DNA of 64,000 nucleotides from positions 1-64,000 of the forward strand of contig JABURQ010000203.1 of NCBI GenBank assembly GCA_014762625.1, in the 5' to 3' direction. Both the position numbers and the translations under genes were made by a program. Below, piece after piece: positions 21,919-47,434 of this stretch. Origin of the DNA: Planctomycetaceae bacterium (GTDB taxonomy: Bacteria; Planctomycetota; Planctomycetia; Planctomycetales; Planctomycetaceae). Each line of letters starts with the position of its first letter. The stretch's first letter is position 1. The notes beneath the pieces were generated by a model. It ran no database searches. It saw nothing but the letters and a program-made list of their open reading frames with translations, and had not been told where the DNA came from.

Positions 21919-23598
21919 ATGCTGCCAGGCTCCACCAGTCAACCACAGACCGATCAGACGGCAACGGAATGCGTGCATTGCGGATTTTCGATCGATCAAG
22001 CTGCGTCCTTCGAACGTTGCCCGCGCTGCTGGCGTCCACTCCCTCTCGAAAGTCCGACAGAAGGCTCTGCCTCACCGCAAGAGTTGATCTTTGCAGAAGC
22101 AGCGCCGGAAGAGAGTCTCGATGAGACTCCTGCCTGGCTGATCGCGGTTCCCGGCGAAGAGGAAGTCCTGACGGACGAGGATCCCTCTCGCTTGAAACGC
22201 TGGCTGGCAGGATACGGCGCGTCGTTTCTGGTGCACAGCATCCTCATGATCGCTCTGGCCTTGATCGTCTATCAGGTGCAAGTGTTTCAATGGCACGACG
22301 CCATTCAATCCTCCATGACGGACGGCGTGGATGTGCTGGGGCAATCGGGCGGACTCGAATTGATGAAACCGGTTGATTTCCAGATCAAGACCGCGCACGA
22401 TCCCGAATCATTGACCAACGCCGCCTATCAGGCGACCAACGTTCCGAATGCCGGCCAGGGCGGAACCGCGACCGGCTCGGGAGATGGTGGCATCGGTTTT
22501 TTCGGAACCCGCGCCAAGGGGGATTCGTTCGCCTTCGTGGTCGATATCTCCGGCAGTATGAACGGCGAATTCAAGGCAATGGATCCCCAGAACGCCGGGG
22601 CCACTCGAATCATCTCACGTTGGGACAAAGCTCGCGAAGAACTGATCGCCGCCATCGACTCCATGACCGAGGACCAGTCCTACTGTGTCGTGTTGTACAA
22701 TAATAATCACCTGCCGATGATCGAGCGCGGCGAGGCGGTGGGGCTGCGCAAAGCCTCGCCCGCCAATAAACGAGAGACGAAACTCTGGCTCGAACGGATG
22801 AGCGCCTACGGCGGAACCAATCCTCAGGAATCGCTCGCCTTTGCGCTGGAGTTGCATCCCGATGTGCTCTACTTCCTGACCGACGGCGCGATTCCGCCCG
22901 ATTCGAGAGATGTGGCGGCGGCGTTCACTGACGGAAAAACCGTCATCCATACCACCTGCATCGGTTATCCGCAGAACGACATTCTGCAACTGATTGCCGC
23001 CGATCATCGCGGTCAGTTTCGTGCCGTCACACCCCAAGGAGATTCCGCAACTCCGAGCGGGGTCTCGCTGATCCTCTTCGTCCGGAGAGCCGGCTCACAA
23101 CGGCAAAAAACATTACGACTCGAAAAAGACTACGAACGGCTGGTCGAATGGATTGAGGATCCCGATATCGACTTTCAACAACCAAACACACACACCCTGC
23201 TCCTGCTGCACAATGGGATCTCCTCCGTTCCGGAGTTCAACGTCGAACTGCTCAAATTCGTGCGGAGCCTGAACACGGAAGGGGTCCAGGGCTTCCAGCG
23301 TTCCCTCCGTGGCGGCTTGCTGGGTGTCGAAGTTCCGCTCGATCCTGAACGACGATTGACCGAGCCTGCTGAGATTGAAGCGGCCCGGAAAAAGCTGTTG
23401 CGCGTGAATCAGATTCTGAAAACGGCGGTTTCGGAATCCGACTATGATTCCTACGAGCATCACGTGCGGGCCATTTACCTGTTCGGCGACGTCGAAGCGA
23501 AAGCGGAACTGACGGCCGCCCTCGAAGTGTTCGATCTTTACAACGGCTCTCAGATCCAGATCATCGACGGCGACCAGTTCGTCCGCGAGAACCGCTGA
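21919..23598 (+). CDS. Zinc-ribbon / membrane helix / VWA-domain protein
   Basis: A 559-residue protein. The N-terminus is a cytoplasmic zinc ribbon with CVHC (18-21) and CPRC (34-37). One membrane helix follows (about 100-120), then a Gly-rich linker, then a von Willebrand A domain beginning at FAFVVDISGSM (about 204-214), whose DxSxS MIDAS motif (Asp209) binds a divalent metal. The domain continues through YGGTNPQESL and YFLTDG; the last 200 residues are not recognised. The membrane helix contains Ser102-x3-His106, the spacing seen in TonB and TolA helices that engage ExbB/ExbD-type motors. The VWA protein of the operon at 46.4 kb has the same motif. The gene stands alone and has no clear Shine-Dalgarno site. 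Confidence 0.8.
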   Translation: MLPGSTSQPQTDQTATECVHCGFSIDQAASFERCPRCWRPLPLESPTEGSASPQELIFAEAAPEESLDETPAWLIAVPGEEEVLTDEDPSRLKRWLAGYGASFLVHSILMIALALIVYQVQVFQWHDAIQSSMTDGVDVLGQSGGLELMKPVDFQIKTAHDPESLTNAAYQATNVPNAGQGGTATGSGDGGIGFFGTRAKGDSFAFVVDISGSMNGEFKAMDPQNAGATRIISRWDKAREELIAAIDSMTEDQSYCVVLYNNNHLPMIERGEAVGLRKASPANKRETKLWLERMSAYGGTNPQESLAFALELHPDVLYFLTDGAIPPDSRDVAAAFTDGKTVIHTTCIGYPQNDILQLIAADHRGQFRAVTPQGDSATPSGVSLILFVRRAGSQRQKTLRLEKDYERLVEWIEDPDIDFQQPNTHTLLLLHNGISSVPEFNVELLKFVRSLNTEGVQGFQRSLRGGLLGVEVPLDPERRLTEPAEIEAARKKLLRVNQILKTAVSESDYDSYEHHVRAIYLFGDVEAKAELTAALEVFDLYNGSQIQIIDGDQFVRENR

Positions 23599-25678: not shown

Positions 25679-27832
25679 ATGTGGAACACCATCAAAACCT
25701 CAGTATTGGCTCGATCCTGCCTGATTCCTGCCCTCATCTGCACCGTTGGTCTGACGGTTATGAATTCCGAGGCCGATGCCTCGGGAATGCTCATCGCGGA
25801 TGGAGGCTTCGGTGGAGTTCTCACGATCGAGGAACATTCCGCGAAAGTGACCATCAACAACGGTATCGCGGTCACCGAAGTGACTCAGGTCTTTCGCAAC
25901 ACAGAAAATCGCCAGGTCGAAGCCTTGTATCTGTTCCCCGTGCCGAAAAACGCCTCGGTCGCGAATTTCAGTATGTGGATTAACGGCAAGGAGATGGTGG
26001 GTGAAGTTCTGGAGAAGAAACGAGCTCGCGAAATCTATAACAGCTACAAACGACGACGTCGCGATCCGGGCTTACTGGAACAAGTCGACTACAAAAATTT
26101 CGAGATGCGAATTTTCCCCATCGGTCCTCAAGCCGAGCAGCGGGTCCAGATTGCCTACTATCAGGAACTCGATTATGACCATGACTGGGCCAGCTACGTC
26201 TACCCCCTGGCGACCGCTCCACGACCGGGACTGAATGCGAAGACGGAAGGCAAATTTGCGCTCACCATGCAGATCAAATCTGAAGTGCCTCTCCTGGAGA
26301 TTGAAAGCAGCAGCCATCCCGACGACTTCGTCTTCGTCAAACATACCGACAAGTATTACGAAGCAAGTCTCGAAACCGACGGTGGGGACCTGAACCGCGA
26401 TCTGGTGCTGGCGTATCACGCTTCGCGCCCGCATACCGGACTCGATCTGGTAACGTCAAAACCGGAAAACGAGGACGGATATTTTCAACTCACCTTAACG
26501 GCGGGAGAAGAACTGGCCCAACAGGACATCGGCATGGATTACGTGTTCGTCCTCGATATCTCGGGAAGCATGGCCCACGACGGAAAGCTGCGCGTTTCCC
26601 GCGAGTCGATCGGAGCGTTCGTCTCCGAACTCGGACCGGACGATCAGTACGAAGTCATCACCTTCAACATGGCTGCCGAGACCTTGTTCGGCGGGCTACA
26701 ACCGATCTCGCCTGAGAATCAGGCCGAGGCGTTGCGTTACCTCGAATCGCAACAGGGACGCGGCGGAACTCGATTGCGTCCCGCCGTCAAAGCCGCCTAT
26801 GCCTACGGCGATCCCGACCGTCCCCTGAACGTCGTCATTTTGAGCGACGGGATGACAGAACAGAATGAACAGCGTGAACTGCTGGCGTTGATCAACGAAC
26901 GCCCCGCGCAGGCTCGCGTGTTCTGTATTGGGGTCGGCAACGAGGTCAATCGTCCGCTGCTCTCGCAACTCGCCGAAGGGGCGGGGGGACTCTCCGCTTT
27001 TCTGTCACGAGGGGACAATTTTGAACGGCAGGCAAAGGCTTTCCGCCGTAAGTTGATGCGACCGGCGGCCGCTAATTTGAAAATTGAAATCGACGGGGCG
27101 GATGTCTACGACGTCGAACCTCGACAACTTCCCGATCTGTATCACGGCATGCCGTTACGAATCTACGGACGCTATCGGAATCCGGGGATCGCCCAGGTAA
27201 CCGTCAACGCGGAAATTAACGGAGCCCCGCTCGAGCAACAGGTCGAGATGACTTTCCCGAAGACCGACCAGGGAAATCCGGAGATCGAACGGATGTGGGC
27301 TTCACGAAAAGTGGAGCGCCTGCTGAAAGAAGCCGACCGCTCCGGTTCCCGGAGCCCCGTGATTGGAGAAATCGTCCGGCTCGGAGAAACGTATTCGATT
27401 GTGACGGAGTATACGTCGTTTCTCGTGTTGGAAAATGACGCCGAGTATCGACGCTGGAAGATCGATCGTCGGAACCTGCAACGGATCAGGCGCGATCGAC
27501 GCAGTCAGCAACAGGTCGAAGCGGAGCTGGCGGAATTGAGAGAACGAGCGATGTCGGAACTGGGGCCGAAATTGGCAGACGCCGAAAAACAATCGGCTCA
27601 GCCGGTCTCGCGTCCCACATCGTCCTCTCCCACTCGGACTACTCCAAGCTCGAGTCAGCCATCGTCACGTCCCTCTTCCACTCCTTCTCCGTCCCCGAGA
27701 CCTTCCCGCAACCGGGATATCTCCTTCGGTGGCGGTGGCGGCGGAGCCATCGATCCGATCACGGGAACGTTGGGATTGTTACTGGCGGGATGCGGCTTTG
27801 CAGCCCGTCGTCGACGCAAGGACGAGGAGTGA
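25679..27832 (+). CDS. VIT-VWA surface protein with GlyGly-CTERM-like tail
   Basis: A 717-residue secreted protein built like inter-alpha-trypsin inhibitor heavy chains. A signal peptide (to about residue 35) is followed by a VIT domain (about 40-170, with VTQVFRNTENRQVEALY and FPVP) and a VWA domain (about 287-460) with an intact MIDAS motif DISGSM (293-298). A beta-rich part and a charged helix come next (about 590-650). Then a Ser/Pro/Thr-rich stalk (about 655-680), six glycines (684-689), a short hydrophobic stretch (about 694-709) and RRRRK end the chain. Glycine run, hydrophobic helix and Arg cluster make up a GlyGly-CTERM-type sorting tail cleaved by rhombosortases. The next gene encodes such a protease 3 bases downstream. 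AAGGAG lies 10 bases before the start. Confidence 0.88.
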   Translation: MWNTIKTSVLARSCLIPALICTVGLTVMNSEADASGMLIADGGFGGVLTIEEHSAKVTINNGIAVTEVTQVFRNTENRQVEALYLFPVPKNASVANFSMWINGKEMVGEVLEKKRAREIYNSYKRRRRDPGLLEQVDYKNFEMRIFPIGPQAEQRVQIAYYQELDYDHDWASYVYPLATAPRPGLNAKTEGKFALTMQIKSEVPLLEIESSSHPDDFVFVKHTDKYYEASLETDGGDLNRDLVLAYHASRPHTGLDLVTSKPENEDGYFQLTLTAGEELAQQDIGMDYVFVLDISGSMAHDGKLRVSRESIGAFVSELGPDDQYEVITFNMAAETLFGGLQPISPENQAEALRYLESQQGRGGTRLRPAVKAAYAYGDPDRPLNVVILSDGMTEQNEQRELLALINERPAQARVFCIGVGNEVNRPLLSQLAEGAGGLSAFLSRGDNFERQAKAFRRKLMRPAAANLKIEIDGADVYDVEPRQLPDLYHGMPLRIYGRYRNPGIAQVTVNAEINGAPLEQQVEMTFPKTDQGNPEIERMWASRKVERLLKEADRSGSRSPVIGEIVRLGETYSIVTEYTSFLVLENDAEYRRWKIDRRNLQRIRRDRRSQQQVEAELAELRERAMSELGPKLADAEKQSAQPVSRPTSSSPTRTTPSSSQPSSRPSSTPSPSPRPSRNRDISFGGGGGGAIDPITGTLGLLLAGCGFAARRRRKDEE

Positions 27833-27835
27833 CCG

Positions 27836-28516
27836 ATGATGGAATTCGCCAGGCGAATTTGGACGGCCGTCCCAGGGAGAGAGATCGTTCTCTCCCTGGG
27901 CCTGGCCCTGTTCACAGGTGTGATTGCCGTCGTTCCCGGACTGTCGGAGTCTTTGCAGTTCGATCGGTCTGCGGTCGCCGGAGGAGAAATCTGGCGTCTT
28001 TTGACCGGTCACTTCTGCCATTGGAACGTCGATCATCTGTTCTGGGACCTGAGCATGTTTCTGGTCCTGGGAACGATACTGGAGCGGGACGAACGTCCGC
28101 GGATGTGGCTTTGTCTGGGACTTTGCTTCGCGTCGATCGTCCCCGCGATTGCAATTTGGATGCCTGAATTTCAGACGTACCGAGGCTTATCGGGCATCGA
28201 TTCCGGTCTGTTCATCCTGTTGATGACCCTCATCCTCAAAGAGAACTGGAACAGTTCGAAACCGATCCTGGTGGGAGGAGCGTTTCTGGGGATGGCGGGA
28301 TTGGCGGCGAAAACTCTGTATGAAATGAAAACGGGGGCTACGCTATTTGTCGATCACGAAGCTGCCGGTATGATCCCGATCCCGCTTTCTCATTTGGCCG
28401 GCGGAATCGCGGGACTGCTGGCCGGGATGTGGCCAATTCGAGAAGTAGAGTTAAAAACGTATTTCTCAAAAGACAATCTGCTCATTTCCGCTTGGAACGG
28501 ACGAGATGCACGATGA
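27836..28516 (+). CDS. Rhombosortase-type rhomboid protease
   Basis: A 226-residue membrane serine protease with about six helices. Rhomboid hallmarks are present: GEIWRLLTGHFCHWNVDHLFWDL (about 50-72, read in two parts), the catalytic serine in GLSG (Ser119) and the catalytic histidine in PLSHLAGG (His186). The WRLLTGH...H.N..H pattern and YRGLSGIDSGLF resemble rhombosortases, which cleave GlyGly-CTERM tails, more than housekeeping GlpG-type enzymes. The substrate is most likely the preceding VIT-VWA protein. GAGGAG within that gene's last codons serves the start, only 3 bases after its stop, so the pair should be made together. The 3' end overlaps a convergent gene by 35 bases. Confidence 0.82.
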   Translation: MMEFARRIWTAVPGREIVLSLGLALFTGVIAVVPGLSESLQFDRSAVAGGEIWRLLTGHFCHWNVDHLFWDLSMFLVLGTILERDERPRMWLCLGLCFASIVPAIAIWMPEFQTYRGLSGIDSGLFILLMTLILKENWNSSKPILVGGAFLGMAGLAAKTLYEMKTGATLFVDHEAAGMIPIPLSHLAGGIAGLLAGMWPIREVELKTYFSKDNLLISAWNGRDAR

Positions 28517-37947: not shown

Positions 37948-40725
37948 CTAGTGCGGGAACCAGACAAAAAGAACGACACTGAGGGTCACCACCGCAACGG
38001 CGATGAACATCACATACTGACGCAATTGACCGGTTTGCAACTTGCGAAAACTGCCGCCGACACGGAATGTCGCAGCCCCCAGCAGGTTGACCAATCCATC
38101 GACAAACTTCTCGTCGAACAGACGGTCCCACTTGCTGATCCACAGAGTCGCACGACTCAACCAGTGCAAAAATGCGTCAAAGACATATTTATCAATCGCG
38201 GCACAGAACCGAGCCACGATATGAGCGGGCTTCATGAACATCGTGTCGTACAGTTCATCGAAGTACCACTTGTGGGAAAGGTAGCTGTGAACGCCTTTCA
38301 GTGAGCTTTTAATATCAGCCGGATTGATCAAACCGAGTCCGTAGATGACAAACGCGATGAGTGTCCCTGTGACTGCGGCGATTGTTGCCAAATTGCCGGC
38401 GCTTGAGTGATTCGTCAGGACATCGATATGGCCTGGCAGATTCAGCGACACGGTGCTTCCAACACCAGCCATCACGGCATGTGTCATCGCGGGGGCTGAT
38501 TCTGAGAGCATGACGAATAGCTTTCCGCCTTCACCACCGACAGCACAAATCGCCGCCAGAACCGACAACGCCACCAACGGTCCCGTCATCACCAGAGGAG
38601 ACTCGTGACAGTGGTCGTAAAGGTGCTCGTCGCGAGGCTTACCGAGGAACGTATAGAACCAAAGGCGGAACATGTAAAAGGCCGTCAAACCGGCGGTAAT
38701 CAACGGCAGAATGAACAGCAGCAGGTGAGCCGGATTCATCTTGAAGTAGGTTAACGCGGTGGCGACGATTGCGTCTTTGGAGTGGAAACCGGAAAAAGCA
38801 GCTTTCGCATTCGCCAGCCCTGTGTAAGAGAGCATCAAACCGACAACCACCAGCGTTGCGACCAGAGGCAATTTCGTCCGTTCGCGTTTGTAGATATCGA
38901 ACAAAGCAAACAATAAACCGAGGATCAACAGAATGTAGCCGATGACTCCGAAGCTCACCCCCGGCACCGACAAACCAGCAATAGCAATTACACCCACCAG
39001 CATCGCAGACCCGGTGATCGGCAACTTGCGGATCAATCCACCCATCTTGGGCATTTCCTGCTCGTGATGGCAGGCCGCTATCACACTTCCCGAGCATAGG
39101 AACAACAGTGATTTGAAGAACGCGTGAGTAACCAAATGGAACAGCCCCGCCGCCCAGCCAAATATTCCCAGACCGAGCATCATATAGCCGAGCTGACTGA
39201 TGGTGGAGTAAGCGAGCACCTGTTTCAAGTCGGTCACAACCATCGCAATGGTCGCCGCCACAAACAGCGTGATCGCTCCTACATAGGCAATGACGAGCAA
39301 CACTTCCGGCGTAAACATCGGATAGAAACGTCCGGCAAGATAAACACCCGCCGCGACCATCGTCGCCGAGTGAACCAAGGCCGAAACCGGAGTGGGGCCC
39401 TCCATCGCGTCGGGCAACCAGGTTTGCAAAGGGAACTGGGCCGACTTACCGATACAGCCCCCGAAAACGCCGAGACCCGCTACCACCAGCAACCAGTAAG
39501 GCATGCTGGCGGGAAGGCCTTCGTCATTTTTCAGGCGACCGCCGTGGCCGTCCTGGAGGTAAACAACACCTGCTTCTTCATCGACATCCAATTCGCCTCC
39601 CGGCGTGCGAATCATCTGAAACAGACCAGCCGGTTTGTCCGCATGAGCGAGATCAGGCTCGGCAAACTTGAACGTTCCGAAGGTGGTCCAGATCGCCATC
39701 AATCCAATCAGGAACCCGAAGTCGCCAACGCGGTTCATGATGAACGCCTTGTTGGCGGCGGTGCTGGCGGACTTCCGCTCGACGTAGAAGCCAATCAGGA
39801 AATAGGAACAGACACCGACCAGTTCCCAGAAAACGAAGACCTGGAAAATGTTTCCGGCGATCACCAATCCGAGCATCGAGAAACAGAACAGCGACAGGAA
39901 CGCGAAAAACTTGTAGAAGCGGCCCGGTCGATGAACGTGCTTGCCGTTTGCGTAATGAGCTTCGTGATCGACATATTCGTCGGTCAATTCATCAGACATG
40001 TAACCCATCGCGAAGATGTGGATACAGGTCGCGATGAACGTCACCATTGTGAACATCACGAGCGTCAATGTATCGATGTAGTATTCGATATTGATCTCAA
40101 GATCGCCGAATTTCGCGAGACGGTAGTAGACTCCGCTGAAGACGGCGGGACCTTCGTGCTTCGCCTCGGCGTCTTCCTCGTGATCGTGACCGTGTTCCTC
40201 GTGGCCATGTTCGGCATGTTCGGCATGTTCGCTGTCCGGTTTTTCAGCGGCAATCGGATCGGCGATGGCGAATTGAGCGAGAGCCGCATCTTTCGGCGTG
40301 ATCGCGGTTTGCTTTTCGCTCTCTTCAGCCTTGTGCTCGCCGTCGTGATGTTTTTCTTCGTGGTGACCCTCTTCATGTTCATGATGGGCGTCGTCGTGAT
40401 GCCCGTCCCCATGCCCTTCTTCGTGGTGACCATGACCGGGCAGAGGCTTTCCTTCTTCGATCGCGGCGACGAGTTCTTTGTGATGAGCCGATTCGTGTTC
40501 GTAACGTTCGTTCCAGCCGGTCGCCTGCACGTAGGTCATGAGTGCCCAACTGCTGAACAGAAAGCCGAGCCCGATGCAGCCGACAGCCATCTGGGCGGCC
40601 GCTTTGCTCAAGCGATCCCGCTGCCAGTATCCGGCAAAGATCTCAACGGCAAACCCGAGCAGCGGCAACAGCCACGCCAAAGTCAGCAGCGTCTTGATGG
40701 TTTCGCCCGTAGTCTGGTAATCCAT
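37948..40725 (-). CDS. nuoL: NADH-quinone oxidoreductase subunit L with His-rich insertion
   Basis: The distal antiporter-like subunit that also carries the long lateral helix of complex I. At 925 residues it is much longer than the usual 600-650. Core motifs are intact: VFVFWELVGVCSYFLIGFY, KAFIMNRVGDFGF, FPLQTWLPDAMEGPTPVSAL (read in parts), DLKQVLAYSTISQLGYMMLG and HAFFKSLLFL. The extra length comes partly from residues about 77-190, a His/Glu/Asp-rich loop with 24 histidines in residues 81-190, placed between the second and third helices. By analogy with other NuoL proteins this loop should face the periplasm. A second insertion (about 360-415) contains GGELDVDEEAGVVYLQDGHGG. Confidence 0.95.
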   Translation of the reverse strand: MDYQTTGETIKTLLTLAWLLPLLGFAVEIFAGYWQRDRLSKAAAQMAVGCIGLGFLFSSWALMTYVQATGWNERYEHESAHHKELVAAIEEGKPLPGHGHHEEGHGDGHHDDAHHEHEEGHHEEKHHDGEHKAEESEKQTAITPKDAALAQFAIADPIAAEKPDSEHAEHAEHGHEEHGHDHEEDAEAKHEGPAVFSGVYYRLAKFGDLEINIEYYIDTLTLVMFTMVTFIATCIHIFAMGYMSDELTDEYVDHEAHYANGKHVHRPGRFYKFFAFLSLFCFSMLGLVIAGNIFQVFVFWELVGVCSYFLIGFYVERKSASTAANKAFIMNRVGDFGFLIGLMAIWTTFGTFKFAEPDLAHADKPAGLFQMIRTPGGELDVDEEAGVVYLQDGHGGRLKNDEGLPASMPYWLLVVAGLGVFGGCIGKSAQFPLQTWLPDAMEGPTPVSALVHSATMVAAGVYLAGRFYPMFTPEVLLVIAYVGAITLFVAATIAMVVTDLKQVLAYSTISQLGYMMLGLGIFGWAAGLFHLVTHAFFKSLLFLCSGSVIAACHHEQEMPKMGGLIRKLPITGSAMLVGVIAIAGLSVPGVSFGVIGYILLILGLLFALFDIYKRERTKLPLVATLVVVGLMLSYTGLANAKAAFSGFHSKDAIVATALTYFKMNPAHLLLFILPLITAGLTAFYMFRLWFYTFLGKPRDEHLYDHCHESPLVMTGPLVALSVLAAICAVGGEGGKLFVMLSESAPAMTHAVMAGVGSTVSLNLPGHIDVLTNHSSAGNLATIAAVTGTLIAFVIYGLGLINPADIKSSLKGVHSYLSHKWYFDELYDTMFMKPAHIVARFCAAIDKYVFDAFLHWLSRATLWISKWDRLFDEKFVDGLVNLLGAATFRVGGSFRKLQTGQLRQYVMFIAVAVVTLSVVLFVWFPH

Positions 40726-40783
40726 GGGTGATCCGTGAAGTCTTGGTGGTAAATCTGTCTCTGAGGTCTGCCGCTCGTCCGCC

Positions 40784-41086
40784 TCAGCCTTTCAGTTCGT
40801 CGCCTCGGTCCACATCGATGGTGAGGTGGTTATTGTAGAAGTTGAGTGCGATGGAGAGGGCAACGGCAGCTTCCGCAGCCGCCAGTACAATCACAAACAA
40901 CGACACGATCTGGCCGTCCAGTCCGAGCGATGTGAATCGCGAAAACGCGACGAAGTTAACGTTCGCTCCGTTCAGAACCAGTTCCACACCCATCAGCAGT
41001 CCGATGCCGTTTCGTTTGGTCGCCATACAGACCACCCCCGAAACAAACAGAACCGCTCCAACTAACAAATAACTTTCCAAACCCAT
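40784..41086 (-). CDS. nuoK: NADH-quinone oxidoreductase subunit K
   Basis: A three-helix membrane subunit of complex I, 100 residues, the normal size. The key glutamates in helices two and three are present: GLLMGVELVLNGANVNFV and VLAAAEAAVALSIALNFYN. It lies between nuoJ (54 bases upstream) and nuoL (58 bases downstream) in the membrane-arm operon. Confidence 0.96.
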   Translation of the reverse strand: MGLESYLLVGAVLFVSGVVCMATKRNGIGLLMGVELVLNGANVNFVAFSRFTSLGLDGQIVSLFVIVLAAAEAAVALSIALNFYNNHLTIDVDRGDELKG

Positions 41087-41140
41087 ATCAGTGACTCATT
41101 CTGATCGATGTAAAATCGTAATGGTGTTACCGAAGTGTTG

Positions 41141-41755
41141 TCATTCCGACGCCTGCGCTCGACGTTTGGCACGAGCCAGATAAGAGGCCCCCACGAGCAC
41201 GACGAGCAGGTGAATCGAGACAATTTCAAACGGGAACAAATACCCGGAACTGAGACCGGCTTCTTCCGGAGCGCCGAGATCCTTATCGGGTCGCAATCCG
41301 AGTAACGCCATTCCCAGCGGGCGAATCGTATTCCCCTGTCCTTGCGGGTTATATCCTTGACCTTCCGCGGGAACGAACTCTCCCTGAGAGGTCACCACGG
41401 CTGCTTGGTTCCAGTCAACCGATCGTACGGTCCCCTGAATCAGGAACAGCAGCATCAGGCCGACGCCCGCCCCGAGAACTAGTTCTCCCGGCGACGTTTG
41501 AATATTGACGTGAGGTCCGCTGGCGGTGAGCATGATCCCGAAGATCAACAACACCAGCGTTCCGCCGACGTAAATAATGATTTGAGTCGCCGCCACGAAG
41601 TCGGCGTGCAACATAAAGTACAGCCCGGCAGTCGATCCGAGCGAGACAATCAACCAGAACGCCATCCGAGCCACTCGCTGAGCGAGTACCACACCCAAAG
41701 CACCGCCGCAGGTGGACAACGCGAATATTAAAAACAAGAGCTTTTCGTAGGTCAT
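41141..41755 (-). CDS. nuoJ: NADH-quinone oxidoreductase subunit J
   Basis: A five-helix membrane subunit of complex I, 204 residues. The conserved helix segment HADFVAATQIIIYVGGTLVLLIFGIML is characteristic. The loop after the fourth helix is longer than usual and polar (about 115-165). The start overlaps the nuoH stop in an ATGA, so nuoH and nuoJ are directly coupled; nuoI, often found between them, is absent here. Confidence 0.94.
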   Translation of the reverse strand: MTYEKLLFLIFALSTCGGALGVVLAQRVARMAFWLIVSLGSTAGLYFMLHADFVAATQIIIYVGGTLVLLIFGIMLTASGPHVNIQTSPGELVLGAGVGLMLLFLIQGTVRSVDWNQAAVVTSQGEFVPAEGQGYNPQGQGNTIRPLGMALLGLRPDKDLGAPEEAGLSSGYLFPFEIVSIHLLVVLVGASYLARAKRRAQASE

Positions 41756-43056
41756 CGGGTTCCTCCGGCGACCTTCCGGTCGTCATCGGCGACTGCCATG
41801 CGGTCATCCGGTGTCGAGTTGGGAAGAATAAATTGTGAGGTTTCTGCGTCTTCGTCGGGAGTGGAAACTGCGGGCTTCACCCAGTTTTCGGCTTTGGGAG
41901 AAGCGAACGACGTTTGAGCTCCTCCGGTCATTTTGTAAACCAAAAGCGGCCAGGCGATCACGCCGAGGAATAGAGCACAGCTGATCGGTATCAGATATTT
42001 CAAACAGGTAATCATCACCTGGTCGATTCGCAGACGCGGCAGAGTCCAGCGGACCCAGACCTGCACAAAGACCAGCACCCAGGCTTTGGAAATCAGGATT
42101 CCCATCCCGATCGCGTTTGCCAGATAAGCCATCGGCTCGAAGCTGCCGTCCGCCGACAAGCCTCGCATTTGATTCAAGGTCGCATCGAGTGGAGGAATGC
42201 CGCTATTCCAGCCTCCCAGGAAGAGGATCGAGGCGACCGCACAAACGACAAACATCGCCGCGTACTCGCCCATAAAGAAGAACGACCATCGCATCCCCGA
42301 GTATTCGGTGTGAAAACCACCCACCAGTTCGGACTCAGCTTCCGCCAAGTCGAATGGGGCACGTTTACAGCTCGCCGTCGCGACAGTGAAATACACGAAG
42401 AATGCGACCAGCGTAAAGGGATCGTTAAAGATCAACCAGTTTTGAAATCCGCCCGACTGCAACTGGGCAATCTCAACCAGATTGAGTGAACCGGCAACAG
42501 TGACCGGAATAATAGCACAGATCGCGAGAGGAATTTCGTAGCTCACCATCTGAGCCGCTTCACGCATCCCCCCGAACAGCGACCACTTCGAGCCGCTCGA
42601 ATAACCGGCGAGAATAATGCCGATCACTTCCAGCGAGAGAATCGCCACCAGCACATACAGGCCGATATCAGAAGCGACCGCGACCCAGGTATCACCGAAA
42701 GGAAGCACCATAAAGGTCGCAAAGGAAGCGACACAGACCATATAAGGAGCCATCCGAAACAACATTGAGTCGGCGGCGGGAGGAACCAGGTCCTCTTTTT
42801 GAATCAGTTTGATACCGTCCGCGATCGATTGCAGCCAGCCGAAGCGGCCACCGACGCGGGTCGGTCCCATGCGGTCCTGGATTCGCCCGGCGATTTTTCG
42901 TTCGCCCCAAATCCAGAAAACAGGAGTCCCCATAAAAATCGCCACCAGCAGGGAACCGTGGATAATTGCAGCCAATACCATGGCGATTCCGTTGGTCAAA
43001 CCGAGAGAATCCCGCAGGTAATCGGCGATATTCGTGGCTATTGGTAAGAAGTTCAT
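41752..43056 (-). CDS. nuoH: NADH-quinone oxidoreductase subunit H
   Basis: The membrane subunit that forms the quinone chamber of complex I with the peripheral arm. The signature loop GPTRVGGRFGWLQSIADGIK and LAEAESELVGGFHTEYSGM are present, with eight to nine helices. At 434 residues it is longer than many homologues because of a polar C-terminal tail of about 70 residues (PKAENW to the end). A TTG at 43074 would add six residues; I prefer the ATG at 43056. It is the first gene of the nuoH-J-K-L-M-N unit, with 530 bases upstream containing no gene. Confidence 0.95.
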   Translation of the reverse strand: MNFLPIATNIADYLRDSLGLTNGIAMVLAAIIHGSLLVAIFMGTPVFWIWGERKIAGRIQDRMGPTRVGGRFGWLQSIADGIKLIQKEDLVPPAADSMLFRMAPYMVCVASFATFMVLPFGDTWVAVASDIGLYVLVAILSLEVIGIILAGYSSGSKWSLFGGMREAAQMVSYEIPLAICAIIPVTVAGSLNLVEIAQLQSGGFQNWLIFNDPFTLVAFFVYFTVATASCKRAPFDLAEAESELVGGFHTEYSGMRWSFFFMGEYAAMFVVCAVASILFLGGWNSGIPPLDATLNQMRGLSADGSFEPMAYLANAIGMGILISKAWVLVFVQVWVRWTLPRLRIDQVMITCLKYLIPISCALFLGVIAWPLLVYKMTGGAQTSFASPKAENWVKPAVSTPDEDAETSQFILPNSTPDDRMAVADDDRKVAGGTR

Positions 43057-43586
43057 CAGCGCATCCGTCCTCAATGGACCGGTCTGGGCTCAAACACGCA
43101 GCGGGTTCATCGCGAACAGTCCCTGTCCGCACCGCGCGTACAACTAAAGCGTGAACTATGCCACAACGGAAATGGCGTTTCAAGTGACCCGGAAATCAAT
43201 TTCTCCAAGCCAGCCAAACACTTGCGCCGGATTTCTCTCAAATTTGAGAAGCTGGGAAATCCTGCGGAGTGGACGAAGGGGACGCGACTGTGATCAACTT
43301 CATCCAGACAACTTTTGGCGGAGGGCTTACTCTCGAATTCCGACCCCGGTTTTCCCCAATCAGTCCGAGTACCCCTGTTTCGTCAAGCAATTCTCACGAA
43401 CGGGAATCTTTCAGTATGGTCAGGGTGTCCGTGAGCATCGGGCCTCAATAGCTTTGTAGGTCGGGTTAGCCGAACGCAGTGAGTCGTAACCCGACAAGCC
43501 TGTGCAACACTGCGCAAACTGTCGAGATACGCTGCGCTATCCCGGCCTACCACATTCACGAGTGGAGAAAAAGAAATTGTGACCGA
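43057..43586. other. Intergenic region between nuoH and the ExbD genes
   Basis: No gene is seen. It must contain the promoter of the nuo operon (minus strand), but I find no convincing -35/-10 pair. The part next to the ExbD stop holds the palindromic element at 43456-43550. Confidence 0.5.
43456..43550. repeat. Palindromic extragenic element (GTCGGGTTA type)
   Basis: The segment begins GTAGG and ends CCTAC. Inside, GTCGGGTTA (43460-43468) pairs perfectly with TAACCCGAC (43487-43495). This motif pattern, with a GCCGAACGCAGTGAG loop, resembles dispersed extragenic repeats known in many bacterial genomes. It lies 36 bases beyond the last ExbD stop codon and could act as a weak transcription end, but there is no T tract. 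Confidence 0.65.
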
Positions 43587-44066
43587 TCACGGCGTGACCT
43601 TCGGCTTCACGGACCGTGTCTTCGGCGGATCGATGGCAAAATTGATTGTCTCGAAATCGACCGAGCGACAGAGGTCGTACAGCTCGATCATATCCCCCAG
43701 AGGAACGTCGTCCCCCGTCTCGATCACCACCGGAATATCGGGAGCGACCGTCGCCAGATCGATCAGCAAGCCCCGCACCCGTTCCGGCTCTTCAATCAAC
43801 GTGCCGTTCAAATCGGTCACGGTTTCACCGCCAATTCGCAAGAGCTTCAGATAGGCACGATCCGGTTTCGGTTGATCGAGGTTTTCGGGCGGAGTTCCCG
43901 ATTTCACACCGGCTCCAGAAATCGGCGTCGAAAGCAGCATCTCTTTCTGTTGCCCGATTGACGCGCAGACAAAAAAGATCAACAGCAGAAACACGACGTC
44001 GATCATCGGTGTCATCGACATCGCTTCGTCCCGCTCGTCGTGCCGGGTGAAGGAAGGGATCTTCAT
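43587..44066 (-). CDS. ExbD/TolR-family protein, second copy
   Basis: A 159-residue inner-membrane protein that, with ExbB, forms a proton-driven motor. One N-terminal helix carries the proton-binding aspartate in MTPMIDVVFLLLIFF (Asp about residue 23), followed by a periplasmic domain with GDDVPLGDMIELYDLC. Its start codon overlaps the previous ExbD stop in ATGA. The C-terminal ten residues are basic. As the fifth gene of the VWA-repeat-ExbB-ExbD-ExbD unit it probably forms a heteromeric pair with the first ExbD. An upstream ATG (44123) is less likely. Confidence 0.9.
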   Translation of the reverse strand: MKIPSFTRHDERDEAMSMTPMIDVVFLLLIFFVCASIGQQKEMLLSTPISGAGVKSGTPPENLDQPKPDRAYLKLLRIGGETVTDLNGTLIEEPERVRGLLIDLATVAPDIPVVIETGDDVPLGDMIELYDLCRSVDFETINFAIDPPKTRSVKPKVTP

Positions 44067-44488
44067 CGCGATTCTCCCGGCATCGTTCCGAACTTGATTT
44101 GCGTCACCCCGGCGCGGGCACATTCCACCATCAACGGTTCGATCACTTTGAAGGGGACCGACTTATCGCCGCGAATCCGGACTTCAAATTTCTCACCGTC
44201 TTTCGCGATGCCATCGGTCAACAGCGGCAGAATTTCTTCCAGCGCGAGAAATCCGCCTCCGACTTTGTATTGTCCTTCCGAGTTGACCGTCACGACGAGC
44301 CGCCCCGCGGACGTCTTCTCTTCATCTTCTCCGGTGACCGCTTCGGGTAACGCCACTTCATCGCGCGATTCATTCCGCACGAAGTGGCTCGCCGCCAGAA
44401 AGAAAATGATCAATAGAAAGATCACATCAATTAACGGCGTTATATTGACGGAGACTCCGAGTTGTCGGCTGCGCGCCGGTAATCGCAT
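44063..44488 (-). CDS. ExbD/TolR-family protein, first copy
   Basis: A 141-residue inner-membrane protein. The single helix contains the essential aspartate in ITPLIDVIFLLIIFFL (Asp about residue 21). A periplasmic domain ends the chain, with FEVRIRGDKSVPFKVIEPLM matching the usual ExbD core. Its ATG overlaps the ExbB stop by one base (TGATG), and its own stop overlaps the second ExbD start. Stacked overlaps of this kind point to fixed ratios of motor parts. Confidence 0.92.
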   Translation of the reverse strand: MRLPARSRQLGVSVNITPLIDVIFLLIIFFLAASHFVRNESRDEVALPEAVTGEDEEKTSAGRLVVTVNSEGQYKVGGGFLALEEILPLLTDGIAKDGEKFEVRIRGDKSVPFKVIEPLMVECARAGVTQIKFGTMPGESR

Positions 44489-45324
44489 CAGCGGGCTCCT
44501 CGCTCCGGAACAATGGGAGGCACGCCGGAACTCGATGCGGGGGAGGATTTCCGTCCGCGTCGCGACGACACGAGGGCTCGTTTGTAATCAGCAAAAACAT
44601 GCTCGGCGAGGAGCGCGGCTTCGGCAACGAGACCATCCACACGATTTCGAAAGATAGCGAACGACGCGACTGCCGGTACGGCGACGCCCAGTCCCATCAA
44701 AGTCGTCACCAACGCTTTGTAAATCCCGGGAGCCAGTTCCGAGACCTGGGGATTGGCTTTCGATTCAAATTCGAGAAACGCCAGGATCATCCCCCATACC
44801 GTTCCCAGCAATCCCAGCATGGGGGCGATCGACCCGATCACCGAGAGGTATTCGATTTTACGCAGCAACCGCGACGATTGCTCCACGCTCGCGTCTTCCA
44901 TCCCTTTTTCGATCGCTTCGTATTCGAGTCCCGCTTCCGACAACCCGGCCTGCAAAATCTCTCCCAGCAGACTCGGATTCTGTCGGCAGAGTTCTTCCGC
45001 CTGCTTGAACTGTTTTTGAGCGATCATCCCGTGAACCTGTTGAGCGAGCCCGTCGGGCATCAATGCCCCGCGCCGAATCGTCAGCAGATGCTCGATGATG
45101 AGCGCGATCAGAATCACACTCATCCCGGCGATGATCATGCCGATATATCCCCCCGCGAGAGCCAGTTCCCGCAGATCGACTTTCGGAGCGACGACGGTTT
45201 CCTCGCCGGCGGTTTCCTGAGCCCAGGCGATGACCGGTATCGAGAGACAGGACGCCGTTGAAAAGAGCAGAAACAGCATCCTGCGAATCGAGGTCGTCTG
45301 CTGTTTGATCCGTTGATTTCTCAC
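44488..45324 (-). CDS. ExbB/TolQ/MotA-family proton channel protein
   Basis: A 278-residue inner-membrane motor protein. A cleavable signal peptide (to about AWAQ, residue 36) precedes three helices: about 55-80, 163-190 (IGSIAPMLGLLGTVWGMI) and 203-230 (LVTTLMGLGVAVPA). The Thr and Gly residues of the last two line the proton pore in relatives. The chain ends in a basic Ser-rich tail. The GTG start at 45324 has AAGGA about 9 bases upstream. The partner is unlikely to be a classical TonB, because no tonB is present; the VWA protein two genes upstream is the better candidate. Confidence 0.92.
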   Translation of the reverse strand: MRNQRIKQQTTSIRRMLFLLFSTASCLSIPVIAWAQETAGEETVVAPKVDLRELALAGGYIGMIIAGMSVILIALIIEHLLTIRRGALMPDGLAQQVHGMIAQKQFKQAEELCRQNPSLLGEILQAGLSEAGLEYEAIEKGMEDASVEQSSRLLRKIEYLSVIGSIAPMLGLLGTVWGMILAFLEFESKANPQVSELAPGIYKALVTTLMGLGVAVPAVASFAIFRNRVDGLVAEAALLAEHVFADYKRALVSSRRGRKSSPASSSGVPPIVPERGAR

Positions 45325-45359
45325 GTCTTCGATCCTTCGTTTATTCGCGAGCGCGATTA

Positions 45360-46409
45360 TTATTCAGCGAGTGATTTCAAGACAGCGTCCGCTTTCCCTG
45401 CGGCGTCCGTCCCCTGATAACGGGCGACCAGCTCCCGGTAAATGGTGATCGATTCCTGTCCCCGTCCGGCAGACCGTAACACTTCCGCAGCCGACAACAA
45501 CGATTGAGCCGATAACAGGCGATCGTGGGGATACAACACGGGAATTCGAAGATAGGTCAAGGCGGCTTCATCGCGCAGCAACTTGAAATCGTAGGCTTGC
45601 GCCAGCAGATAATAGGGGCCGCCTCGTTCCCGAGTCGGCAGGCGTTCGATATGCCGTTGCCATTGTTCGATCGTAAACACCGACAGGTCTTTTGCCTTCA
45701 ACTCCAAACGCCACAATTGCGATTCGGCCAGCGGCTGCAAACGCCGATGTCCGGTGTTTTTGAATTCCAGCAAAATCTGCTTTGAAGTCTCTTCAAAACC
45801 GGGCTGAAAGAGCAGGATCGACGCCGCCACCAGACGTTCGATCTGAGACTCTCCCCCGATCAAATCCGCCGCGCTCCTGATTTGCGACTTTGTCAGGACC
45901 TTCTCAGTCCAGACGGCGGGTAACAGTTCGAGATGATGCGTGGTTTCATCGCTGGCGAAGATTCGGTCCATCCGTGTGGCGGCAGTGACGTAATCTCCCC
46001 GGAACAAAGCCGCCCGGACCAGATCGGCCAGAATCTCCCGTTTTACCCATTCGCGGGGATCGAGCGTTAATGCTTCCAGCAGCTTTGCTTCCGCTGCGGA
46101 CGCTTCTCCTGCCGCCAGTAATTTCAGGCCGTCCTGTTGTTGTCGAGATTGCGGCGTCTCGACGCGCGTCACTTCGCTGGTCGCGTAAGTTTTATTCGCA
46201 TTGGCGTCCACTTCGCGGACTGTGACTGCTTCTCCCGTGTAGTCGATGATGCGGCAGCGAATCCGTTTTTTCCCCGTACTCAATCGGGGCTGCACCAGAA
46301 TCTGATCGGGATAGTTCCCCTCCTGGGTTACCGCACTCGATTGTCCCCATGCGACGGGTGCCGTCAGGAGCATAGACAGGGTCAGCAGCATCGCTTTGAT
46401 CAACCGCAT
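45360..46409 (-). CDS. Secreted TPR-like repeat protein of the ExbB/D operon
   Basis: A 349-residue exported protein of unknown role. A signal peptide (to about AWGQ, residue 22) is followed by a short beta domain (about 35-80, with IRCRIIDYTGEAVTVREV) and then helical repeats (about 90-345) that read as degenerate TPR units, such as LKLLAAGEASAAEAKLLEALTLDP and a last unit with SITIYRELVARYQGTDAAG. It probably binds a partner in the periplasm. A GTG at 46415 overlaps the stop of the VWA gene; the ATG at 46409 has AGAGG 5 bases upstream and is preferred. It sits between the VWA and ExbB genes. Confidence 0.75.
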   Translation of the reverse strand: MRLIKAMLLTLSMLLTAPVAWGQSSAVTQEGNYPDQILVQPRLSTGKKRIRCRIIDYTGEAVTVREVDANANKTYATSEVTRVETPQSRQQQDGLKLLAAGEASAAEAKLLEALTLDPREWVKREILADLVRAALFRGDYVTAATRMDRIFASDETTHHLELLPAVWTEKVLTKSQIRSAADLIGGESQIERLVAASILLFQPGFEETSKQILLEFKNTGHRRLQPLAESQLWRLELKAKDLSVFTIEQWQRHIERLPTRERGGPYYLLAQAYDFKLLRDEAALTYLRIPVLYPHDRLLSAQSLLSAAEVLRSAGRGQESITIYRELVARYQGTDAAGKADAVLKSLAE

Positions 46410-46411
46410 CG

Positions 46412-47434
46412 TCACCTCTGCTCATTCAATTTAGTGACGTCGCGATAACTGTAAGTCCCTTTGTTTTGTCGAGCGAGAGTTTTGAGAAAGTTGTCGATCC
46501 CTTTATCCAACTCCTGGCCGATGCCGAATTCGATGCAATGAATTCGGGCTCCGCTCTGATTCTGTTTTTGGATATACGCCAACTCGCTTTTGTTGAGAGA
46601 CGGCTCACGAGCATCGGTCAGAAAGAAAATCACATCGGGTTGATACTTGAGCGCCGCCAGTAACGCCGGCATGTGTCGAGTTCCCAGCGTCGGACGGACG
46701 CTGCCGACGAATCGTTTCGCCCGATTTCGGTTCACGTCGGTCGCGGGATAGAGGCCGAGCGGTTGATTGGGGATCTGAAAGCGTTTGATTTCCTCGTTGT
46801 AGAAAATGACCTGAAATTTTTGTCGAGGAGTCAGTCCCTGAAGCGACGCCATCAGTTCCGCCTTGGCGAAGTCGAGCGCGTTGTAGTCTCCCATACTGCC
46901 GGAACAGTCGATGATGTAGACGAACTTCTTCCCGTTATCGATGGCTCCCAGAAAACGAACCGGTCCGTCCCCCTGTCCGAAGGCAGCCTCCATCGGAATC
47001 TGTGAGGAAGACGACTGTATTTTGGAAGGAGTCGGATTCGGCAAACCGACTGCCGGTGACAACGCCCCAGGGCCGAGCAGGTCGCTCCCGATCTCGGGTA
47101 ACGAGACATCGACCGGCGGTTTGTCGGGAACTTCGAGGACTTCCGTCTCTTCGTTGATGACTTCTTCCCGATCCGTCTCCGAATCGTTCTGCTCGGTATT
47201 TTCATTGAATCGCGGTGTGTCGGAATCCTTCATCACGAGCCCGACAGTCCGGTATTCTCCTTCGCCAGTACCGGTCGTCACGCCACCGCAACTTTTCAGT
47301 TGGGTGCTCAGCAACACCAGAAACAGGGCGTGGAGAATCAACGACAGCCCCCACCCCGGTATCGCCGCCCATCGATAGCGCGTTTCCTGCCAGGAAAGAT
47401 GCGATTCAGCTTGTGTGGGAGTGGTTTGGGACAT
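46412..47434 (-). CDS. VWA-domain protein with TonB-like membrane helix
   Basis: A 340-residue protein. After about 25 cytoplasmic residues one helix (about 29-45) reads WGLSLILHALFLVLL, with Ser31 and His35 in the S-x3-H arrangement that TonB and TolA use to couple to ExbB/ExbD or TolQ/TolR. A long acidic, Pro-rich linker (about 60-150) follows, as in TonB. The C-terminal part is a VWA domain with MIDAS motif DCSGSM and VIFFLTDAREPS, rather than a TonB fold. The gene heads the operon with ExbB and two ExbDs. A TTG at 47440 is in frame; the ATG at 47434 is preferred. A candidate promoter lies at 47498-47526. Confidence 0.85.
   Translation of the reverse strand: MSQTTPTQAESHLSWQETRYRWAAIPGWGLSLILHALFLVLLSTQLKSCGGVTTGTGEGEYRTVGLVMKDSDTPRFNENTEQNDSETDREEVINEETEVLEVPDKPPVDVSLPEIGSDLLGPGALSPAVGLPNPTPSKIQSSSSQIPMEAAFGQGDGPVRFLGAIDNGKKFVYIIDCSGSMGDYNALDFAKAELMASLQGLTPRQKFQVIFYNEEIKRFQIPNQPLGLYPATDVNRNRAKRFVGSVRPTLGTRHMPALLAALKYQPDVIFFLTDAREPSLNKSELAYIQKQNQSGARIHCIEFGIGQELDKGIDNFLKTLARQNKGTYSYRDVTKLNEQR

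Follow-up and report, generated by a model that had tools for sequence, protein, structure and literature searches.

A family of vWA force transducers with members in Planctomycetes has recently been described (Williams-Jones et al. 2025, Mol Biol Evol 42:msaf138, PMC12204202). The gene set of this family includes a TPR gene, tolQ and paired tolR genes, and an AF3 model in that study docks the vWA helix on the motor through a conserved histidine, which is numbered His35 there, as in the protein analysed here. The same study introduced the concept and name of the motor box, and reports no phenotype for the vWA transducer family. Our literature search found no other account of the family. Here we analyse a five-gene operon located in a 64,000-nucleotide stretch of planctomycete DNA (the window), which belongs to a 6.23-Mb genome assembled in 208 contigs. 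The operon is a member of the published vWA family, and the original prediction, which placed a vWA protein in the TonB position of an ExbB/ExbD motor, had reached this already published idea independently.

As in the described family, the operon encodes a transmembrane (TM) helix with Ser and His, a disordered Pro-rich linker and a C-terminal vWA domain, adjacent to genes for a TPR protein, a TolQ-type subunit and two TolR-type subunits. However, the vWA gene lies downstream of the motor genes in the described family, whereas it comes first here; the downstream order also occurs at loci L070–L077, which belong to another family of the class. Moreover, only the S-x3-H half of the SHLS motif is conserved across the members that we examined. 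The Ton system likewise has an ExbB and ExbD motor and a single N-terminal S-x3-H helix followed by a Pro-rich linker, whereas the operon has a vWA domain rather than a TonB C-terminal domain, two ExbDs and an extra TPR protein, and the occurrence of the vWA system does not track that of TonB or TonB-dependent receptors. Tol-Pal shares a TolQ-like motor, the S-x3-H helix and an operon-encoded periplasmic TPR protein reminiscent of CpoB, but the operon lacks a TolA C-terminal domain, TolB and Pal, and its TPR protein resembles YbgF/CpoB weakly. The Bat operon (BatA, BatB and BatC) also encodes membrane vWA and TPR proteins, and BatB (3ibs) is among the fold matches of the vWA domain. To our knowledge, Bat operons have neither an ExbB/ExbD motor nor an S-x3-H helix.

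Operon layout and its vWA and TPR proteins

The five genes lie on one strand, from 47434 down to 43587 (−), in the order vWA, TPR, ExbB, ExbD1 and ExbD2, and are tightly packed or overlapping (Table 1). The earliest possible start of the TPR frame, a GTG at 46415, overlaps the vWA stop codon, and the overlaps between ExbB and ExbD1 and between ExbD1 and ExbD2 are 1 base and 4 bases (ATGA), respectively. Pfam matches were obtained for ExbB (MotA_ExbB, E-value 2.6e-30), ExbD1 (3.2e-20), ExbD2 (9.7e-14) and the vWA protein (VWA_3, 1.3e-7). The coordinates, overlaps and family matches bear out the predicted five-gene operon with overlapping ends. The operon is followed closely on its downstream side by nuo (complex I) genes (37948–43074, −), one of which encodes a NuoL-like protein with an unusual insertion, roughly 100 residues long and rich in His, Glu and Asp. 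DUF1501-like and sulfatase-like genes are also present, and this gene content, together with the cited literature, points to a planctomycete.

Table 1 Features of the operon and of a paralogous gene in the window
Feature	Coordinates	Strand	Length	Evidence
vWA force-transducer protein	46412..47434	-	340 aa	translation, Pfam VWA_3, conservation, AlphaFold2, Foldseek
Secreted periplasmic TPR protein	45360..46409 (about)	-		translation, NCBIfam, AlphaFold2, Foldseek
ExbB/TolQ-family motor channel subunit	44488..45324	-		Pfam, conservation, alignment to solved TolQ
ExbD1, ExbD/TolR-family subunit 1	44063..44488	-		Pfam, conservation
ExbD2, ExbD/TolR-family subunit 2, diverged from ExbD1	43587..44066	-		Pfam, conservation
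Ser31-x3-His35 codons within the vWA TM helix	47330..47344	-		translation; S 61/61, H 60/61
Candidate motor box (EYRTVGLVMK, residues 60–69), just past the vWA helix	47228..47257	-		column counts
Paralogous vWA protein, candidate motor-orphan transducer	21919..23598	+		no ExbB/ExbD alongside

The vWA protein comprises a cytoplasmic N-terminal tail (residues 1 to 26), a TM helix (residues 27 to 49), a linker (residues 50 to 157) and a vWA domain (residues 158 to 340). In the AlphaFold2 model, computed with a 52-sequence alignment, the helix is confident, the linker is disordered over about 108 residues and the vWA domain is confident, with pLDDT values mostly above 90; the predicted layout of helix, disordered linker and vWA domain is TonB-like. 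The linker is acidic and Pro-rich, with 11 Pro and 20 Asp/Glu within residues 52 to 152. The vWA domain carries DCSGSM at residues 176 to 181 and a complete MIDAS (D176, S178, S180, T252 and D274), and its vWA fold is matched both by a sequence profile and by Foldseek, with hits to inter-alpha-inhibitor heavy chain 1, BatB and integrin I domains. Translation of the gene confirmed the Ser31/His35 pair, the acidic Pro-rich linker and the DCSGSM site of the original prediction. No TonB or TolA model matched the vWA protein in the Pfam and NCBIfam family searches, and no TonB C-terminal domain (TonB_C, PF03544) was found in the window genome or its genus; a canonical TonB is thereby ruled out, given that TonB_C is missing from both the protein and the genome. 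Just past the helix, a conserved segment with the family consensus [FY]-R-x-V-G-[IL] (R in 35/52, V in 32/52, G in 40/52 and I/L in 46/52 sequences) has low pLDDT and constitutes a candidate motor box.

The TPR protein has a Sec-type signal peptide and no lipobox, followed by a small β domain (residues 35 to 84) and a helical-repeat array of about 260 residues. AlphaFold2 predicted the small β domain and the subsequent helical repeats with a pLDDT of 92. The identification of this protein as CpoB was rejected, since its match to the NCBIfam model tol_pal_ybgF (1e-4) is far below the cut-off and the Foldseek hits are generic TPR proteins and BamD.

Conservation of the helix motif and the motor

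In an alignment of 61 vWA homologues and paralogues, Ser31 is present in every sequence and His35 in all except one, and the MIDAS residues D176, S178, S180 and D274 occur in 61/61 and T252 in 59/61 of the same sequences. Judged from these residue counts, the Ser31/His35 pair equals the vWA metal site in its invariance. In the 52-sequence alignment, which has a mean column identity of 24%, the invariant columns are S31, D176, S178, S180, M181, T252, D274 and G326, whereas the other helix positions vary among hydrophobic residues, with Trp at −3 and Pro at −5 frequent at the cytoplasmic edge. Of 627 hydrophobic helices from other open reading frames in the same DNA, 6 have the S-x3-H spacing, as compared with 60 of 61 vWA homologues, a contrast that is large, although it is not a formal probability because the sequences are related; the idea that S-x3-H is simply common among hydrophobic helices is ruled out by this control. 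By contrast with S-x3-H, the remainder of the SHLS motif of TonB and TolA is poorly kept (Leu at S+11 in 23/52 and Ser at S+15 in 7/52), and the full motif was dropped as a description of the vWA helices.

The idea of motor coupling also survived a search for orthologues that retain the operon and have lost Ser or His. The sole exception among the 61 sequences (locus L074, 2851–3918, genome G058) carries Asn where the others have the helix His, and lies beside an intact ExbB–ExbD–ExbD set. According to the title of a study cited in PMC8928145, Asn can fully substitute for TonB His20, and the His-to-Asn change beside a motor that is intact fits a role of the His as a structural contact and not as a proton carrier. 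Among homologues from other classes, S-x3-H is kept in seven loci (L177–L181, L183 and L184), four of which have an adjoining ExbB gene (L177, L178, L179 and L181), and is missing in L182 and L185, both of which are distant.

The motor subunits retain the corresponding residues. The best solved-structure matches of ExbB are TolQ, and ExbB Ser69, Thr175, Thr208 and Pro217 are each conserved in 31/31 sequences. In the alignment to solved TolQ, Thr175 and Thr208 align with the pore threonines, Pro217 with TolQ Pro187 and Ser69 with TolQ Ser28, which is among the residues that touch the essential TolA His22 in the cryo-EM structure from E. coli (PMC12215075). The essential Asp is present in all sequences of both ExbD proteins (Asp21 in 19/19 for ExbD1 and Asp23 in 18/18 for ExbD2). 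The counterpart of TolQ Trp32, the other TonB/TolA contact, is replaced by Val, Ile, Leu or Ala in ExbB. Because neither Trp32 nor the Leu-Ser of SHLS is kept, the docking site appears TonB-like and not identical to those of Ton and Tol.

Distribution of the vWA system and of Ton and Tol parts

The five-gene order was found to be conserved: the full vWA–TPR–ExbB–ExbD–ExbD arrangement recurs in 17 genomes, including that of the window, which span 14 genera. The vWA–TPR–ExbB order was found in four further genomes and vWA–TPR alone in seven, and nine loci have other motor-adjacent layouts, mostly ExbB–ExbD followed by vWA. Among 16 genomes checked in which the vWA gene has no adjoining motor, 14 encode a close ExbB elsewhere (45–65% identity to that of the operon), and 11 of these 14 unlinked ExbB genes are directly followed by at least one detected ExbD. 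The operon breaks up, yet its components usually remain within one genome; the orthologous ExbB genes in 14/16 rule out the idea that a genome whose vWA gene is unlinked from a motor has lost the system.

Of the 59 genomes of the class, 56 encode a homologue of the vWA protein, as do 216 of 294 genomes of the phylum, the latter being a permissive count that takes in other vWA proteins. ExbB-family genes are present in all 59 class genomes, TonB_C in 14 and TonB-dependent receptor barrels in 22. TolB_N was found in 0/59, as was TolA (PF06519), for which the test is narrow, given that this model matched only E. coli among 14 control genomes. On these counts, the vWA system does not track TonB, and the known Tol-Pal system is not visible in the class. 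Genome G000, in which no TonB C-terminal domain was detected, carries one TonB-dependent receptor barrel (contig C5:5073–6362).

The window genome encodes at least four vWA proteins with S-x3-H, namely the operon protein, the paralogue at 21919–23598 and one on each of contigs C190 and C200, and has three loci with ExbB and two ExbDs; no vWA protein with an S-x3-H helix was seen near the other two. The paralogue has a putative N-terminal zinc ribbon (CxxC...CxxC), a TM helix with S-x3-H (GASFLVHSI) and a vWA domain, and a similar protein is encoded in a genome of the same genus (G001, L090). A different, VIT/vWA-type protein (25679–27832, +) has an inter-alpha-trypsin-inhibitor-like layout and a Gly-rich, hydrophobic C-terminal tail with RRRR that resembles a protein-sorting signal, and its gene is followed by a rhomboid-like gene (27836–28516).

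Two additional loci were noted in G000. On contig C33 (L135, 731–7600), the genome's second ExbB and two-ExbD set is preceded by genes for TPR proteins of 1194 and 347 residues, with no vWA gene. On contig C63 (L139, 4410–7077), a lone ExbD gene directly precedes that of a 745-residue protein with two N-terminal helices, the second of which contains S-x3-H (SFVVSVLAHLGF), and a weak squalene-hopene-cyclase-like repeat domain; this protein is possibly another non-TonB partner of a motor.

A proposed trans-envelope machine with a vWA head

We consider it highly probable that the operon encodes a proton-driven trans-envelope machine of the Ton/Tol kind with a vWA head, in which the motor would move the docked helix and the linker would transmit tension to the vWA ligand. 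In this mechanism, an ExbB pentamer would hold ExbD1 and ExbD2, probably as a heterodimer, and convert proton flow into movement, while the single vWA helix would use Ser31 and His35 to dock externally on an ExbB subunit, as in TonB and TolA. The disordered linker would span the periplasm and carry the tension to the vWA domain, which may grip a partner in the periplasm or the outer membrane, probably by means of its metal site, and the secreted TPR protein may scaffold or load this partner. The predicted docking of the helix on the motor, and with it the motor coupling of the original prediction, is well supported by the conserved operon, the Ser/His pair with its single Asn exception, the invariant ExbB Ser (31/31) and the published AF3 model. 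Pulling on a ligand across the envelope is plausible in view of the intact metal site, the linker of about 108 residues predicted to be disordered and the Sec-type signal of the TPR protein.

The vWA protein could instead regulate the ExbBD motor or assist its assembly, for instance as a metal-dependent clamp, with the real transducer encoded elsewhere. vWA domains can act as scaffolds or chaperones, as in ViaA and BatA/B, no ligand or force is known for the vWA protein and further ExbB and ExbD loci are present in the genome, all of which would suit such a role. However, the protein is laid out as a transducer and has the invariant S-x3-H of one, its linker has the length needed to cross a periplasm, and the genome offers no TonB_C, TolA or TolB as an alternative transducer system, which makes a regulatory role unlikely.

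Since S-x3-H is also kept in vWA proteins that have no motor gene nearby, the motif by itself is no proof that the helix couples to this particular motor, and the motor-orphan paralogues would fit a helix that is a lineage trait of planctomycete membrane vWA proteins, serving oligomerization or another partner, with motor neighbours by coincidence. This explanation is very improbable: it is opposed by the recurrence of the five-gene order in 14 genera and of motor-adjacent layouts at nine other loci, by the identity of the helix motif with that of TonB and TolA, by the invariance of the contacting ExbB Ser and by the nature of the single exception, an Asn that, as far as the cited title goes, replaces TonB His20 in full. 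Finally, an ExbD-like rotor with its helix in the ExbB pore, as proposed for a second vWA family that adjoins tolQ without tolR (PMC12204202), is next to impossible here, as it is contradicted by a helix that lacks Asp and has S-x3-H and by the two Asp-bearing ExbDs in the operon.

Relative to the published description, the present analysis adds the class-wide test of the Ser/His pair and the observation that TonB_C, TolA and TolB_N are mostly absent while ExbB motors occur in 59/59 and vWA transducers in 56/59 genomes. A more tentative but real possibility is that the class relies chiefly on vWA machines for force transduction in the envelope, which would perform the jobs done elsewhere by Tol-Pal and perhaps by Ton, and that the motor-orphan S-x3-H paralogues share a few motors, in which case one motor would drive several different heads. 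If the trans-envelope machine is as proposed, a whole diderm class would power its outer envelope by a head unrelated to TonB or TolA. With Ser31/His35 and the metal site invariant across the class, clean point mutants could separate coupling from grip in a genetically tractable planctomycete, and the question of how outer-membrane upkeep, feeding and constriction proceed without Ton or Tol-Pal would become directly testable.
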